64,000 nt of DNA from Thermobaculum terrenum ATCC BAA-798. GTDB taxonomy: Bacteria; Chloroflexota; Chloroflexia; Thermobaculales; Thermobaculaceae. The notes under the pieces are model-generated. The model made no database searches. It worked only from the letters and a program-made list of their open reading frames with translations, and was not told the origin of the DNA. A program made the position numbers and the translations under genes. Positions 26,371 to 40,351 of the stretch are shown here, piece after piece; positions within the stretch are counted from its first letter, which is position 1, and every line of letters begins with the position of its first letter. The stretch lies in contig NC_013525.1 of the NCBI RefSeq assembly GCF_000025005.1, positions 1,762,501-1,826,500 of the forward strand. The letters run 5' to 3'.

Positions 26371-26469
26371 GGGAGCGGAAGGGTCCCGGTGGGTTCCGCG
26401 GTCTTCAAAACCGTTGGGAGGCTAGCACTGCTGGTCTCCGGTGGGTTCGACTCCCACGCGCTCCCGCCA
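26371..26469 (+). tRNA. selC: Selenocysteine tRNA (anticodon TCA)
   Basis: This 99-base tRNA includes an encoded CCA. The anticodon loop is CTTCAAA, so the anticodon is TCA and it reads UGA. The acceptor arms GGGAGCG and CGCTCCC pair. The eighth pair expected for tRNA-Sec would be G opposite G. The T arm is GTGGG-TTCGACT-CCCAC. The variable arm is long, with about nine pairs and a five-base loop. An enlarged D arm can be drawn, although imperfectly. These are the marks of tRNA-Sec rather than tRNA-Ser. It implies selA, selB and selD elsewhere; none is in the window. Confidence 0.88.
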
Positions 26470-35118: not shown

Positions 35119-36570
35119 CTAGTAAGCTCGTGCGAAGTACACTTTTACTTGTGCCTTGTTTCCACATCTAATACAAGTACCAGGATCTTCGGGCTGGGCC
35201 AAAGGCACCACTCTGATAGTTGCACGAGTCTCCTCTTTGACCGCAGCCTCACACTCATCACTACCACACCATCCTGCGTAGATGAACCCTCTCTTGTTAT
35301 CAAGAACCTCCAACATTTGAGCAACACTCTCACACTCAAACGTGTGTTCGTCTCTGAACTGCTTGGCGCGGTCGAACAGAGACTGCTGTATATCAGCTAA
35401 GGTTTGCTGCAGCCTTACAACAAGGTCGTTCAGAGGTACCTGAGATTTATCCCTATTGTCTCTACGCACAAGCACAACAGCGCTATTGGCAACATCTCTT
35501 GGACCAACCTCAAGCCTTACTGGCACCCCCTTGAGCTCCCATTCATTAAATTTCCAACCAGGAGTCTTCTCCTCACTCAGATCTATGTGCAGTCGGAAAG
35601 AATCTCCTAGAACTTCCTTTATCCTATCTATGTGCTCCAAGACCTTCTGTTTGTCTTCTTCGCTTCTCCATATAGGAACTACTACCACCTGAATTGGGGC
35701 AACTTTAGGAGGTATTATCAAACCCGAATCATCACCATGAACCATTATTATTCCACCTATGGTGCGAGTAGAGAGCCCCCAACTAGTGGTATACCCATAC
35801 TTGCGCTCGCCATCCTTATCTAGAAATGTTATGTCAAAAGCCTTAGCAAAATGATCGGCAAAGTCGTGACTAGTAGCAGACTGGAGCGCCCTACCATCTC
35901 CCATAAGTGCCTCTACGGTATAGGTCTCAGCGGCACCCGGGAACCTCTCAGAAGGAGTCTTGCGACCAGGGATAACCGGTATTGCTAGATCTTCCTCAAG
36001 GAACGACCTGTAGACCTCAAGCATAAGCAAAGTACGTTCTGTGGCTTCCTCGGCCGAAGCGTGTAGAGTATGACCTTCTTGCCATAGGAACTCAGCTGTA
36101 CGCAGGAACAGCCTAGTATGTAGCTCCCAGCGCACCACACTATTCCATTGGTTGATCAATATCGGCAGGTCCCTATAGCTCTGCACCCACTTGGAATACA
36201 TCTGCATTATTATCGCCTCAGAAGTAGGGCGTACCGCTAATCTCTCCTCAAGCTCTTCGTTCCCCCCATGTGTCACCCATGCTACTTGAGGATTAAAGCC
36301 TTCAACGTGCTCTGCTTCCTTTCTGAGTAAACTCTCAGGAATAAGCAGAGGGAAGTAGGCATTGACTACCCCTGTCGCCTTGAACCTTGCGTCCAATAAT
36401 TTCTGTATGTTTTCCCATATAGCGTATCCATAAGGTCTATAGACCATCATTCCCCTGACCGGGCTGTAATCAGCAAGCTGAGCCCCAAGCACAACGTCGT
36501 TGTACCATGCAGCAAAATCCTCGCTCCTCTTCGTTATCTTCTGCACATATTCAGAGCTAGTGCTTGACAT
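35119..36570 (-). CDS. proS: Prolyl-tRNA synthetase, archaeal/eukaryal type
   Basis: ProS charges tRNA-Pro. This is the short class lacking the bacterial editing insertion: motif 2 is near NQWNSVVRWELHTRLFLRTAEFLWQEGHT, and motif 3 is in WGLSTRTIGGIIMVHGDDSGL (cited in parts). The C-terminal zinc-domain Cys residues (CGSDECE, CIRCG) and the terminal Tyr (FARAY) match the archaeal type. The length is 483. A GGAGG Shine-Dalgarno precedes the ATG. A T-box leader lies directly upstream. Confidence 0.95.
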   Translation of the reverse strand: MSSTSSEYVQKITKRSEDFAAWYNDVVLGAQLADYSPVRGMMVYRPYGYAIWENIQKLLDARFKATGVVNAYFPLLIPESLLRKEAEHVEGFNPQVAWVTHGGNEELEERLAVRPTSEAIIMQMYSKWVQSYRDLPILINQWNSVVRWELHTRLFLRTAEFLWQEGHTLHASAEEATERTLLMLEVYRSFLEEDLAIPVIPGRKTPSERFPGAAETYTVEALMGDGRALQSATSHDFADHFAKAFDITFLDKDGERKYGYTTSWGLSTRTIGGIIMVHGDDSGLIIPPKVAPIQVVVVPIWRSEEDKQKVLEHIDRIKEVLGDSFRLHIDLSEEKTPGWKFNEWELKGVPVRLEVGPRDVANSAVVLVRRDNRDKSQVPLNDLVVRLQQTLADIQQSLFDRAKQFRDEHTFECESVAQMLEVLDNKRGFIYAGWCGSDECEAAVKEETRATIRVVPLAQPEDPGTCIRCGNKAQVKVYFARAY

Positions 36571-36599: not shown

Positions 36600-36898
36600 A
36601 GGTCGTAATAAAAAACCCGCCCTTCGAAGCGCAAGACTTCGAGGACGGGTTCTATAACTTCCCGCGGTACCACCTCGATTGGAGCTTGAAACTCCCACCT
36701 CAGTGACCAGCAAACGCTGATCAGCCCTTTAACGGGGGCAGCGTACTGCCTTATCGTCCATAAGACGCTTCGACAGAGGCTCCGGGGTGGGTTCAGCACA
36801 GCCTACTGTCCGGTTCTCACCATGTTCCGGATCTCTGTATTTCTCAGCTGGTGCCTACTATTCCCCTTCAGCGCCTTGTCTATATATTAGTTTTCTGA
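36600..36898 (-). promoter_or_regulatory. T-box riboswitch leader of proS
   Basis: The minus-strand leader has the ordered parts of a T-box. A stem I base is followed by GGGGAATAGTA. The apical loop is GGTGAGA (36815-36821). A candidate specifier, CCC (36789-36791), lies in GAACCCACC. The T-box itself is GGTGGTACCGCGG (near 36661-36674), and an intrinsic terminator follows. Uncharged tRNA-Pro would pair its 3' CCA with the TGG bulge and prevent termination. The specifier choice is tentative; the T-box core is not. Confidence 0.9.
36609..36652 (-). terminator. Intrinsic terminator of the proS T-box
   Basis: Arms 36614-36630 and 36635-36651 form a long stem with a short loop, followed on the minus strand by a run of six or seven T. 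The stem start overlaps the region that would be freed by antiterminator formation. Confidence 0.88.
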
Positions 36899-36941: not shown

Positions 36942-38675
36942 CTACGAAGCCAAAGATAGTCGCCTGGATCTCTTAGCCAAATCTATGAGTTCATCAGCAC
37001 TTTGCAGGGATCTATCTGTCACAGGCATACCACCAAGCATGGCTGCTAACTCATGTCTGATGCCCTCCCTGTCGAGCTTATCAACTCTTGTCGTTGTTAG
37101 GTTGTCCTGAATAACCTTAGTTATCTTGAAGTGTGTATCTGCGTAAGCAGCTACCTGTGCTAAATGGGTTATGGCTATCACCTGGTGATTACTTGCCAGT
37201 CCGGTTAGCTTTTCACCAACTATCCTACCACTACGACCACCAATGCCAACATCCACCTCGTCAAATACCAATGTGGGAGTGGTGTCTGCCGCAGACAATA
37301 CAGTCCTTATCGCCAGCATAATACGAGATATCTCTCCTCCAGACGCAACCTTAGCAATAGGTTTGAGCGGTTCCCCCGGATTAGGCGATACCAACAACTC
37401 TATGTCGTCAGCACCAGTTTGATCTATGCCTACCTCTGTCCCATCTATGGAGATTGAATAGTCAGAAGGTTGCTTATAACCAACTTTTATCTCGATCTGG
37501 GCATTGGTCATCAGCAGATCGTTTAGCTCTTGCTCTATCTTTCTACCTAAATCCTTGGCAGCTTTTGATCTTATAGAAGATAAATCTTTGGCCTTCTGTG
37601 CCAATTGCTGCCGAAGATTCTCAAGCTGGGTTTCCAGCTTCCTTATCTTTTCGTCGCTGTTCTCGATATCAGAAAGCTCAGCCTCAGCATTGTCCCGATA
37701 CTGGAGTATCTCCTCAATAGTAGCCCCATACTTTCGTTTTAGCTTGTTTATAAGATCCAGGCGTTCTTCAACCACCTCGAGCATGCCGGGATCAAACTCT
37801 ATGGAATCTCTATATCTACGAATACTAAGCGAGGCTTCTTCAACAGCAACAACCGCCTCAGATATCATGTCCAAATTAGAGGACAAGGAGTTGTCAAGGC
37901 GTACCAATTCTTCAAGAAGACTCTGAGCTTGCTGAAGCTGATCTATCGCACTTGTACTAGAGGAGTACAAGGACTGATAGGCATTGTCAGCTAGTTGAGC
38001 TAGCTTTTCAGCGTTAGCTAGCAAGTTCCTTCGTTTTAGTAGTTCTTCATCTTCACCAGGCTGTAGATCAGCCGAGCTGATCTCTTCAATCTGATAACGC
38101 AGCATATCGGCACGGCGTTCTGCCTCACGTTGACCGGAAACCAGAGCATCCAATTCAGATTGCACTTGCCTGATTTCGTTATACAGCTGGCTCACCTCAG
38201 AGCGTAGATCGATAGCGCCTGCGTAGTGATCGAGCATATCCCTTTGGGCGGAAGGTCGCAAGAGAACTAGATGTTCTGATTGACCAGTAATATCCACTAG
38301 ATTCTCGCCCAGTTGCCTTAGAAGAGTTACGGGAACAAGGGAGCCGTTGATCCTTGCAGACGATCTACCACTCGAGCTAATCTCCCGAGTAATAATGAGC
38401 TCCTCTGAGGGATCAAGCCCATTAGACTCCAGAAGTTCACTTACTTCCCTAAGTACACCCCCCTCCAACACGAACATAGCCTGAATAAGGGAGGAAGAGG
38501 CTCCAGTACGCACCATATCAGGAGACGCTCGACCACCCAACACAAGGTCAAGAGCATCAATTATTATGCTTTTCCCAGCACCTGTCTCCCCTGTGAAGGC
38601 GTTGAAGCCAGGACTAAAGCTGATGTTTATCTCCGAAATGATTGCAAAATCTCTGATATGGAGCTCAGCCAGCAC
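36942..38675 (-). CDS. recN: DNA repair protein RecN
   Basis: RecN is an SMC-like ATPase that acts early at double-strand breaks. The N-terminal Walker A is FTGETGAGKSIIIDAL. Two coiled-coil arms lie at about residues 150-370. The C-terminal signature VASGGEISRIMLAI and Walker B TLVFDEVDVGIGGRSG complete the ATPase head. The length of 577 is standard. It begins with a GTG and stands 60 bases after a strong terminator, so it needs its own promoter. No obvious LexA box was seen. Confidence 0.96.
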   Translation of the reverse strand: MLAELHIRDFAIISEINISFSPGFNAFTGETGAGKSIIIDALDLVLGGRASPDMVRTGASSSLIQAMFVLEGGVLREVSELLESNGLDPSEELIITREISSSGRSSARINGSLVPVTLLRQLGENLVDITGQSEHLVLLRPSAQRDMLDHYAGAIDLRSEVSQLYNEIRQVQSELDALVSGQREAERRADMLRYQIEEISSADLQPGEDEELLKRRNLLANAEKLAQLADNAYQSLYSSSTSAIDQLQQAQSLLEELVRLDNSLSSNLDMISEAVVAVEEASLSIRRYRDSIEFDPGMLEVVEERLDLINKLKRKYGATIEEILQYRDNAEAELSDIENSDEKIRKLETQLENLRQQLAQKAKDLSSIRSKAAKDLGRKIEQELNDLLMTNAQIEIKVGYKQPSDYSISIDGTEVGIDQTGADDIELLVSPNPGEPLKPIAKVASGGEISRIMLAIRTVLSAADTTPTLVFDEVDVGIGGRSGRIVGEKLTGLASNHQVIAITHLAQVAAYADTHFKITKVIQDNLTTTRVDKLDREGIRHELAAMLGGMPVTDRSLQSADELIDLAKRSRRLSLAS

Positions 38676-38741: not shown

Positions 38742-38766
38742 AGGTCGAGCTACTAAAGCTCGACCT
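38742..38766 (-). terminator. Second (constitutive-looking) terminator upstream of recN
   Basis: A 10-bp perfect stem (38742-38751 with 38757-38766) has a 5-base loop and is followed by six T on the minus strand. It lies 30 bases past the first hairpin and insulates recN from the minigene. Confidence 0.88.
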
Positions 38767-38776
38767 AAAAGAAAAA

Positions 38777-38823
38777 GGGATCACCGGAGATGATGACTAA
38801 GCTAGCCTTCCTCCGGTGATGCC
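38777..38823 (-). terminator. First terminator, competing with a leader hairpin
   Basis: The core stem pairs 38811-38820 with 38780-38789 (10 bp). One bulged C and three more G-C pairs extend it. It has a 21-base loop and is followed by TTTTTCTTTT. Its upstream arm is also the partner of the Shine-Dalgarno stem of the minigene. Confidence 0.8.
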
Positions 38824-38844
38824 CTTACTACCTGATGTGTCCAT
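38797..38844 (-). CDS. Minigene encoding a 15-residue peptide (unknown)
   Basis: The reading frame MDTSGSKGITGGRLA ends with TAG and is preceded eight bases upstream by AGGAGG. The Shine-Dalgarno extends to 12 bases, AAAGGAGGTGAT (38849-38860), complementary to the usual 16S 3' tail. An ATG six bases earlier would add two residues. The peptide is Gly/Ser-rich and hydrophilic, with no signal or membrane segment. It matches no family known to me. It has its own promoter and two terminators, and its codons overlap two competing hairpins. It may be a leader peptide, a signalling peptide, or a byproduct of an RNA switch. Confidence 0.55.
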   Translation of the reverse strand: MDTSGSKGITGGRLA

Positions 38845-38899
38845 GGGCATCACCTCCTTTACCCTAAACGGAAAACCTAAGGTTTTCTTAACTACTGGC

Positions 38900-38928
38900 A
38901 GCATATCAGGGGTTGAGTCCCATGTCAA
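38900..38928 (-). promoter_or_regulatory. Promoter of the minigene
   Basis: A perfect TTGACA (38923-38928) is separated by 17 bases from TATGCT (38900-38905). Transcription would begin near 38893, giving a leader of about 45 bases that includes a small GAAAACC/GGTTTTC hairpin. Confidence 0.75.
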
Positions 38929-38941
38929 GCAGATTCGCCAA

Positions 38942-40351
38942 TTAGAATACCCAGAAATCTCTTGCATACCTACGAGCAACAGGTTGAGCAAGTAGTATTA
39001 CCGCAACAAAAACTAGATAATACAGCACCAGAGACTTAGGTCCAACAATGAGCCTAAGTTCGCTAGCAGCAGATATTTCACTTATGGAGTTTGCTATATA
39101 TACGATTGCCAGTACGAATTTGCCAGTTAACCACCCAATGGCACTTCCTAAGGACGCCGATAACACTCCTAACACAACCGTTAGGACGGTAAGTATCATT
39201 TCCAGAGGAATAAGAGGTGCTACCAAGACATTCGCCAGTATAGCCAAGTGTGAGACCTTACCGAAATAGAAGATCAGTAATGGCATAGTGCTAGCCTGAG
39301 CTACAAAGGAGATGCTAACTGTTTCCCGAAGTAATTCTGGAAGACGAGCCATGGCCCTGGCCACCGATGGGTACAACCATATTATGCCAGCCGTAGCCAA
39401 CACTGAGAGCTGCATGCCTATATCGTAGATCGAGAAAGGTTGCAGGGCAGAGATAAGCAAAAGAGCAAAGCACAAGGACCTCCCGGAATCATTCTGACGG
39501 CCGATCCACCTACCCCAAAGGGATGTGACAGCCATCACGGAGGCTCTAACCACCGGGGAGGACATGCCCGATAAACCCATATATATTGGGACAAGAATAA
39601 ATGCAAGGCACATCGAGCCTCTTATGCCTATTAAGGGCCGAAGGAAAGCTATAACTATCAACACCAATATGGTTACATTGAAACCAGAAGCAACCAGTAT
39701 GTGTGAAAGCCCAGACTCACGAAAGTCCCTTTCAATATCTTCGGGAACGTTGCCGGCATTACCTAAAATCATGCTCTCAGCTACGGAAGAATAAGGATAG
39801 CCTACATAAGACCTAATTAGGGAAGACGTATTATTGCGAACCTTCGCCATAACAGATTGGAGATTCCCCTTATCTCTACTTACTACCTTGATGGACTTAG
39901 CAAATATCACCCCATGAGCACCTTTGCTCAAGGAGTATCTGAAAAGGAAACCATCCAGCTGATAGAAAGGCACTGAGCTGCCACTGATGTACAAGTGATC
40001 TCCCGGGGTCAGGTTTGTAATACTCCCCACTAACAGCCAGGTACCACTATGAGGGCTACTTAAGCTCACAAGTGCAGAATTAGAAACTTTATCCAATACC
40101 TTTCCACTGTACTCGGAGAATGGAGTATCATTGTTTGCCCAGTCAGCTCTAGAATAGTAGATCTCAGATCTTAGAACGCCTAACAGGGATGCAAGCATGG
40201 TTACTGCCAGGCAAAAATAAACTTTATTCCTAGTACGCCAAACAAAGGCCATAAGCATAGCTAAACATAGAGATATAGGTAGATAGTCCAGTTTGAAGAA
40301 GGTACCGAATACAAGACCTAATAACCACGCAAAGACGAAGACGTATATCAC
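38942..40351 (-). CDS. comEC: ComEC/Rec2-family DNA uptake channel (membrane part only)
   Basis: ComEC forms the inner-membrane channel for transforming DNA. About ten membrane helices are present. The competence-domain signatures are HILVASGFNVTILV, MGLSGMSSPVVRASVMA and DIGMQLSVLATAGIIWLYP. The N-terminal soluble part (residues ~65-170) is the OB-like DUF4131. The C-terminal metallo-beta-lactamase domain found in many ComECs is missing at 469 residues. The GTG start overlaps the comEA stop (GTGA). Confidence 0.88.
   Translation of the reverse strand: MIYVFVFAWLLGLVFGTFFKLDYLPISLCLAMLMAFVWRTRNKVYFCLAVTMLASLLGVLRSEIYYSRADWANNDTPFSEYSGKVLDKVSNSALVSLSSPHSGTWLLVGSITNLTPGDHLYISGSSVPFYQLDGFLFRYSLSKGAHGVIFAKSIKVVSRDKGNLQSVMAKVRNNTSSLIRSYVGYPYSSVAESMILGNAGNVPEDIERDFRESGLSHILVASGFNVTILVLIVIAFLRPLIGIRGSMCLAFILVPIYMGLSGMSSPVVRASVMAVTSLWGRWIGRQNDSGRSLCFALLLISALQPFSIYDIGMQLSVLATAGIIWLYPSVARAMARLPELLRETVSISFVAQASTMPLLIFYFGKVSHLAILANVLVAPLIPLEMILTVLTVVLGVLSASLGSAIGWLTGKFVLAIVYIANSISEISAASELRLIVGPKSLVLYYLVFVAVILLAQPVARRYARDFWVF

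Follow-up and report, generated by a model that had tools for sequence, protein, structure and literature searches.

What lies in the short gap between comEC (38942-40351) and recN (36942-38675), which flank it on the minus strand of Thermobaculum terrenum ATCC BAA-798, with recN downstream on the same strand? The window, i.e., the whole 64,000-nucleotide stretch analyzed (contig NC_013525.1, positions 1,762,501 to 1,826,500), had earlier been given a sequence-only reading. In that reading, a segment overlapping a Shine-Dalgarno (SD) sequence could pair with a segment inside a tiny open reading frame (ORF), or the latter could serve instead as the upstream arm of a terminator, and this was taken for the logic of a riboswitch or translational attenuator. 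Our analysis bears out the two competing stems and argues against both functional labels. We propose, at a probability of about 60%, that the element is a ribosome-responsive dual RNA: a free-standing RNA gene that is also a translated minigene, in which the 30S subunit competes with an internal anti-SD.

Two stems that compete for one arm

Read along the minus strand, the unit begins with a promoter of its own, a -35 hexamer TTGACA (38923..38928) followed, after a 17-nt spacer, by a -10 hexamer TATGCT preceded by TG (38900..38905), an architecture repeated in homologues. Transcription probably starts close to 38893, which would leave a leader of ∼35 nt before the SD. Reading and folding find in it a short hairpin, GAAAACC-TTA-GGTTTTC (38871..38887), and comparable small leader hairpins are seen by eye in homologues. 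The extended SD, AAAGGAGGTGAT (38849..38860), is complementary over 12 nt to the usual 16S rRNA 3' tail, which is the tail seen in the Herpetosiphon-like locus L074. It overlaps arm 1, GGTGATGCCC (38845..38854), and is followed by the ATG (38844) of a 15-codon ORF, MDTSGSKGITGGRLA (38797..38844), which ends with TAG at 38799-38797. Reading, folding and covariation agree on all three arms: besides arm 1, there is arm 2, GGGCATCACCGGAG (38811..38824), which can partner either of the others, and arm 3, CTCCGGTGATCCC (38777..38789). The U-rich run after arm 3 (38767..38776) is, by comparison with homologues, largely this genome's own, and beyond it stands a separate intrinsic terminator hairpin, AGGTCGAGCTTTAGTAGCTCGACCT (38742..38766), with a further U-run.

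Direct reading shows that GGTGATGCCC (38854-38845) is exactly complementary to GGGCATCACC (38824-38815) within the tiny ORF, at the coordinates given in the sequence-only reading. The second pairing, which had been placed between 38815-38824 and 38780-38789, is present too, but its mid and late arms are longer than described, by 4 and 3 nt, and the full arms pair with one C bulged. The tiny-ORF stop codon does sit in the loop of this hairpin (38799-38797), as had been noted, but the hairpin's supposed role as a terminator did not hold up across the family. A run of four or more U directly 3' of the arm 2:arm 3 hairpin occurs in only 6 of 63 copies, the window included. As it is absent in the other 57, this hairpin is not the family's terminator.

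Folding and covariation also uphold the view that both stems share the middle segment and exclude one another. A truncated window RNA (38880-38810) folds with arm 1 paired to arm 2, and the full RNA folds with arm 2 paired to arm 3 (z of -4.0 for 119 nt and -5.6 for the hairpin alone). Both pairings persist across 63 class-wide homologues, where they show compensatory change. In alignment A2, which holds 61 class-wide copies, arms 1 and 2 are paired in 97% of cells, compared with 28-55% when slid; arm 1, with the extended SD, is nearly invariant, and arm 2 tracks it, its inner positions varying only between bases that still pair with arm 1. Arms 2 and 3 are paired in 92.5% of cells (sliding gives 34-67%), and 62 cells are doubly compensatory, a count somewhat inflated because the late arms of A2 were picked by their pairing, and one whose cells come from kin and are not independent events. 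Their covariation score is 0.367, against 0.205 when shuffled and at most 0.153 when slid. The same arm 2:arm 3 columns and pair types appear in the untrimmed, unbiased alignment A1, with counts that agree. Homologues keeping only one pairing had been named as evidence against the switch; most in the alignment keep both, and in some copies, such as L078 and L090, one helix is incomplete.

The mean predicted energies, computed at 37°C for hosts of which several are thermophiles, are -40.8 kcal/mol for the fold with arm 1:arm 2 and -42.5 kcal/mol for the fold with arm 2:arm 3, the latter being better in 62% of cases. In 98% of RNAs cut before arm 3, arm 1:arm 2 comes no more than 1 kcal/mol short of the optimum. 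With so little energy between the two folds, the RNA is predicted to be bistable, and the predicted order, with SD:mid first, is the hallmark of such an RNA that starts out closed and is released later.

An autonomous unit across the class and beyond

The element recurs widely in the class. A DNA search gave matches in 40 of 61 genomes, those inspected being the same element, and the 14-mer AAGGAGGTGATGCY, the SD core, is present in 114 of 158 class genomes, generally as a single occurrence; its reversed control had a handful of matches. Named records in a collection scan place copies in Chloroflexaceae, Roseiflexus, Oscillochloris, Thermomicrobiales, Ardenticatenaceae, and others. A covariance model locates the window element at 38876-38776 with an E-value of 2.4e-18, which is rough, as the model's E-values are, and comes from a model whose 61 building sequences include the window copy. 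The usual copy number is one per genome. Genome G152 has three pattern matches, and a Thermomicrobiales contig (L194, 5812-5933) carries two copies on opposite strands, ∼40 bases apart, with intact frames and differing sequences.

Copies are flanked by signals of their own. In 94% of the 63 copies, the top-scoring upstream promoter reaches 10 or more of 13, compared with 4% of shuffled sequence; it is most often TTGACA-17-TATAGT and lies 36-76 nt 5' of the SD, and a separate terminator hairpin is found within 90 nt in 61 of 63. No second cistron intervenes between the tiny ORF and the terminator, and the sequestered SD is the tiny ORF's own. Across the Chloroflexota loci, no neighbor gene is conserved and contexts are unrelated, with the next downstream ORF convergent in about half of loci by mechanical ORF calls. 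Altogether, its own promoter, a separate terminator, and differing or convergent neighbors indicate that the element controls no downstream cistron. Judged by its sequence, it is best described as an autonomous transcription unit made up of a near-consensus sigma70 promoter, leader, SD, ORF, late arm, and terminator. The commonest upstream neighbor in Chloroflexia is a small same-strand gene for a LysM-domain lipoprotein (14 loci, among L063-L087), which ends 65-250 nt 5' of the element's SD. In L074, the element is just downstream of an rRNA operon and convergent with it.

A covariance model from which the arm 1:arm 2 pairs had been left out finds copies in other Chloroflexota classes; outside the class, matches with E-values of ∼1e-3 to 1e-2 were counted as members only if inspected, and many weak ones were left out. 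The inspected divergent copies have the same architecture built from other arm sequences (GGAGGTGATGTGCA/CTGCACCACCTCG, GGAGGAGGTGATGTCC/CGGCATCCCTCCTC, and AGGAGGTGATGCCC/AGGGCCGCCTCCG), and in these classes SD:mid is altered on both sides together (e.g., GATGTGCA/TGCAC). Such joint changes mean that arm 1:arm 2, too, varies on both sides at greater depth. In 33 divergent copies, the SD:ORF pairing has a mean z of -3.1 against mononucleotide shuffles, and the ORF:downstream (mid:late) pairing is weaker, with a mean z of -1.65.

Candidates in Mycolicibacterium and Aeromicrobium (L174 and L190) and a weak covariance-model match (L300) were rejected as chance matches in GC-rich, probably coding sequence. 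A strict AGTAGT pattern had no match in 396 Actinomycetota genomes, and searches of IMG/VR and plasmids gave no match. One copy labelled Candidatus Gracilibacteria (L226) looks identical to the Chloroflexia locus L038 and is probably on a misbinned contig.

Cyanobacterial copies and Sye_sRNA1

The scan of named records gave one true copy outside the Chloroflexota, between rplI and an aldehyde oxygenase gene in Cyanobacteria bacterium M5B4 (L225). By BLAST, 60 of 77 cyanobacterial relatives yielded matches, and a search with one copy as the query gave a single match in each of 116 of 386 cyanobacteria; in 87 of the 386 cyanobacteria sampled, the 17-mer AGGAGGTGATGCCCATG has exactly one occurrence, and the reversed control has none. 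The string AGGAGGTGATGCCCATG...GATAGTAGTAA..ATGGGT is common to the cyanobacterial and Chloroflexota copies. Most cyanobacterial copies encode 23-25 amino acids (consensus-like MTDSSKIMGLLVEVSRLCAGAVL), and the pairing of their ORF with the sequence 3' of it has energies of about -36 to -59 kcal/mol. In an alignment of 24 sequences with the linker excised, the core helix (mid:late) is paired in 93% of cells, compared with 18-53% when slid, with 40 doubly compensatory cells. Many of these copies lie downstream of psbD or cobB (named by reading of the proteins), and a pterin dehydratase gene is also a frequent neighbor.

Scans of Rfam, Pfam, and NCBIfam gave no entry matching the element. Literature searches found nothing for the sequences and, for the names, nothing useful apart from PMC6091082. 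There, Sye_sRNA1 of Synechococcus elongatus UTEX 2973 is reported as the most abundant small RNA, top after rRNA, and as a free-standing RNA of ∼200 nt by Northern blot; its 53 homologues, mostly downstream of psbD or cobB, include those of Anabaena 7120 and Synechocystis 6803 (TU475), and TU2045 of PCC 6714 is also a homologue (PMC6091082). The cyanobacterial copies are likely this Sye_sRNA1 family, an identification made by synteny (psbD/cobB) and not by the Sye_sRNA1 sequence. Like the element, Sye_sRNA1 is a free-standing small RNA with one copy per genome and a conserved structure. It differs in its length of ∼200 nt and longer mid:late helix, the Chloroflexota copies being shorter and in other gene contexts. 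It is also treated in PMC6091082 as an sRNA: under the terms searched, the main text mentions no small ORF, and its passages on Sye_sRNA1 name neither a Shine-Dalgarno sequence nor the Chloroflexota.

The psbD/cobB location is found neither for the window element (comEC - element - recN) nor for other Chloroflexota copies. A shared core (SD-ATG, DSSK..MG codons, and mid and late arms) is present both in the psbD/cobB-context cyanobacterial loci and in Chloroflexota copies; the window copy has its SD-ATG and arms and lacks the DSSK codons. The tie between the Chloroflexota copies and the Sye_sRNA1 family would be one of homology, not shared synteny. New here are the extended SD, the tiny ORF, the three-arm toggle, and the Chloroflexota branch. 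The gene may be older than the divergence of two major phyla, and the likely identification would turn an orphan abundant cyanobacterial RNA into a testable ribosome-coupled switch, with model organisms.

A proposed ribosome-responsive RNA and its rivals

We favor an RNA that responds to ribosome loading. A strong promoter would drive a short transcript of about 130-150 nt. In the emerging RNA, arm 2 would pair with arm 1 and close the extended SD, and arm 3, once made, would compete for arm 2. Once the SD is open, a 30S subunit could dock there, its 16S rRNA tail forming an unusually long duplex with it, and the ribosome would translate 13-17 codons (23-25 in cyanobacteria), pass through arm 2, and halt in the loop before arm 3. 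Because the ribosome would read through arm 2 and stop before arm 3, initiation and translation would decide which stem exists, and thereby which segment is exposed. We infer this ribosome-thrown switching because of where the SD, ORF, and stop lie relative to the arms; transcription in Chloroflexota, translation, and any target are to be taken as similarly putative. The functional product would be the RNA rather than the peptide.

The main rival is a regulated micropeptide, in which the product is a peptide of 14-25 amino acids and the arms do no more than time its synthesis, the SD being opened once the transcript is complete. It would account for SD:mid forming early and mid:late later, and for the conservation of the start codon, frame, and stop: in all 63 copies the ATG keeps one frame with respect to arm 2, the ORF has 13-17 codons in 61 of them, and the stop falls 22-28 nt past the start of arm 2. 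The peptide may matter in cyanobacteria, where its C-terminus RLCAGAVL is strongly conserved, but the cyanobacterial peptides have no match in Pfam or NCBIfam. In Chloroflexia, the peptides, which are short and mostly hydrophilic, share little beyond the G-I/V-T/A dictated by arm 2 and drift between groups, and changes within the arms obey base pairing. From codon 2 to about codon 6, it is the third position (U) that is most conserved while positions 1 and 2 vary; third positions before arm 2 are T in 69%, and serine codons there are AGT in 97 cases and AGC in 6 (L001-L090, codons 2-6), in DNA of ∼60% GC. Peptide drift together with such codon usage at this GC content points to constraint at the RNA level. 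For the two other frames, 86% and 95% of copies have a stop within 24 nt. The AGT-type codon pattern reappears in cyanobacteria as GATAGTAGTAA. Translation of the tiny ORF probably matters, with constraint that appears to fall mostly on the RNA, and we consider the peptide an unlikely product, though the most credible of the alternatives.

The boldest version of the favored ribosome-loading RNA is a 30S decoy: an abundant RNA that matches the 16S 3' tail almost as fully as possible might reversibly capture and release initiating 30S subunits by means of its toggle. We offer this as speculation, doubtful as it stands. Less plausible again is a trans-acting base-pairing sRNA with a vestigial ORF, whose arms would be seeds and whose 16S-like complementarity would pair near the starts of other mRNAs. 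Such an sRNA would suit a free-standing gene with a strong promoter and strong terminator, and the abundance in cyanobacteria (PMC6091082). However, a pure antisense sRNA would need neither the SD-like look of the most conserved segment, with its ATG at the right spacing, nor a reading frame preserved in every copy.

A cis-acting leader of the downstream gene, be it riboswitch or attenuator, is very improbable. It would draw on the window's mid:late hairpin with its U-run and on recN downstream on the same strand, as well as on the porin gene that lies 400-750 nt downstream in many cyanobacteria (elsewhere often pterin dehydratase). However, a second strong terminator follows, downstream genes are unrelated or convergent, and the cyanobacterial RNA is reported as a discrete ∼200-nt species (PMC6091082). 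The riboswitch of the sequence-only reading found no backing in an Rfam aptamer or a conserved downstream gene, and only ∼35 nt of leader precede the SD. At gathering scores, the Rfam scan of the window left the element unmatched, and permissive thresholds in homologues gave only sub-threshold, chance-level matches, and a riboswitch, T-box, or other Rfam family was rejected. The same window holds a T-box leader (RF00230, 99 bits) at 36638-36880 (-), just 5' of a prolyl-tRNA synthetase gene (35119-36570), and a selenocysteine tRNA gene (RF01852, with ARAGORN concurring) at 26371-26469 (+). The translational attenuator of a neighboring gene fared no better, given the element's own promoter and second terminator, neighbors that are not conserved, and an SD that belongs to the tiny ORF. 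A leader of recN or another conserved gene was rejected because neighbors are not conserved, and a cyanobacterial porin leader because porin genes are frequent but not universal and terminators intervene. Nor is the alternative fold an intrinsic terminator before a regulated gene, as in a transcription attenuator.

A simple pair of terminators behind comEC, complementary by chance to a sequence that only looks like an SD, would explain the two hairpins with U-runs between comEC and recN in the window, but is refuted by conservation, as the three-arm architecture, promoter, and ORF recur class-wide in other contexts and in cyanobacteria, with the SD core in 114 of 158 class genomes and 63 copies inspected.

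Three known systems come close to the proposed ribosome-responsive RNA. The ermC-type translational attenuators combine a leader peptide, an SD-sequestering stem, and mutually exclusive stems, and the position of the ribosome decides between them, as we propose here. Their sequestered SD, however, is that of a second, downstream cistron, the resistance gene, whereas here it is the tiny ORF's, without a controlled cistron. In hok mRNA, a metastable early hairpin keeps ribosomes off until the transcript has lengthened, and the element is likewise a single short free-standing mRNA whose early stem would close the ribosome site until the RNA has grown. Unlike hok, which encodes a toxin of roughly 50 amino acids and has an antisense RNA, the element encodes 13-25 amino acids, with neither a toxin family nor an antisense gene evident. 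Finally, 6S RNA mimics an open promoter for RNA polymerase, and resembles the element as an abundant free-standing RNA that mimics the substrate of a core machine; the machine there is RNA polymerase, and the corresponding role here, as a 30S decoy, is hypothetical. If the decoy is true, the element would be to the small subunit what 6S RNA is to RNA polymerase, sensing or buffering the supply of free ribosomes in Cyanobacteria and Chloroflexota.
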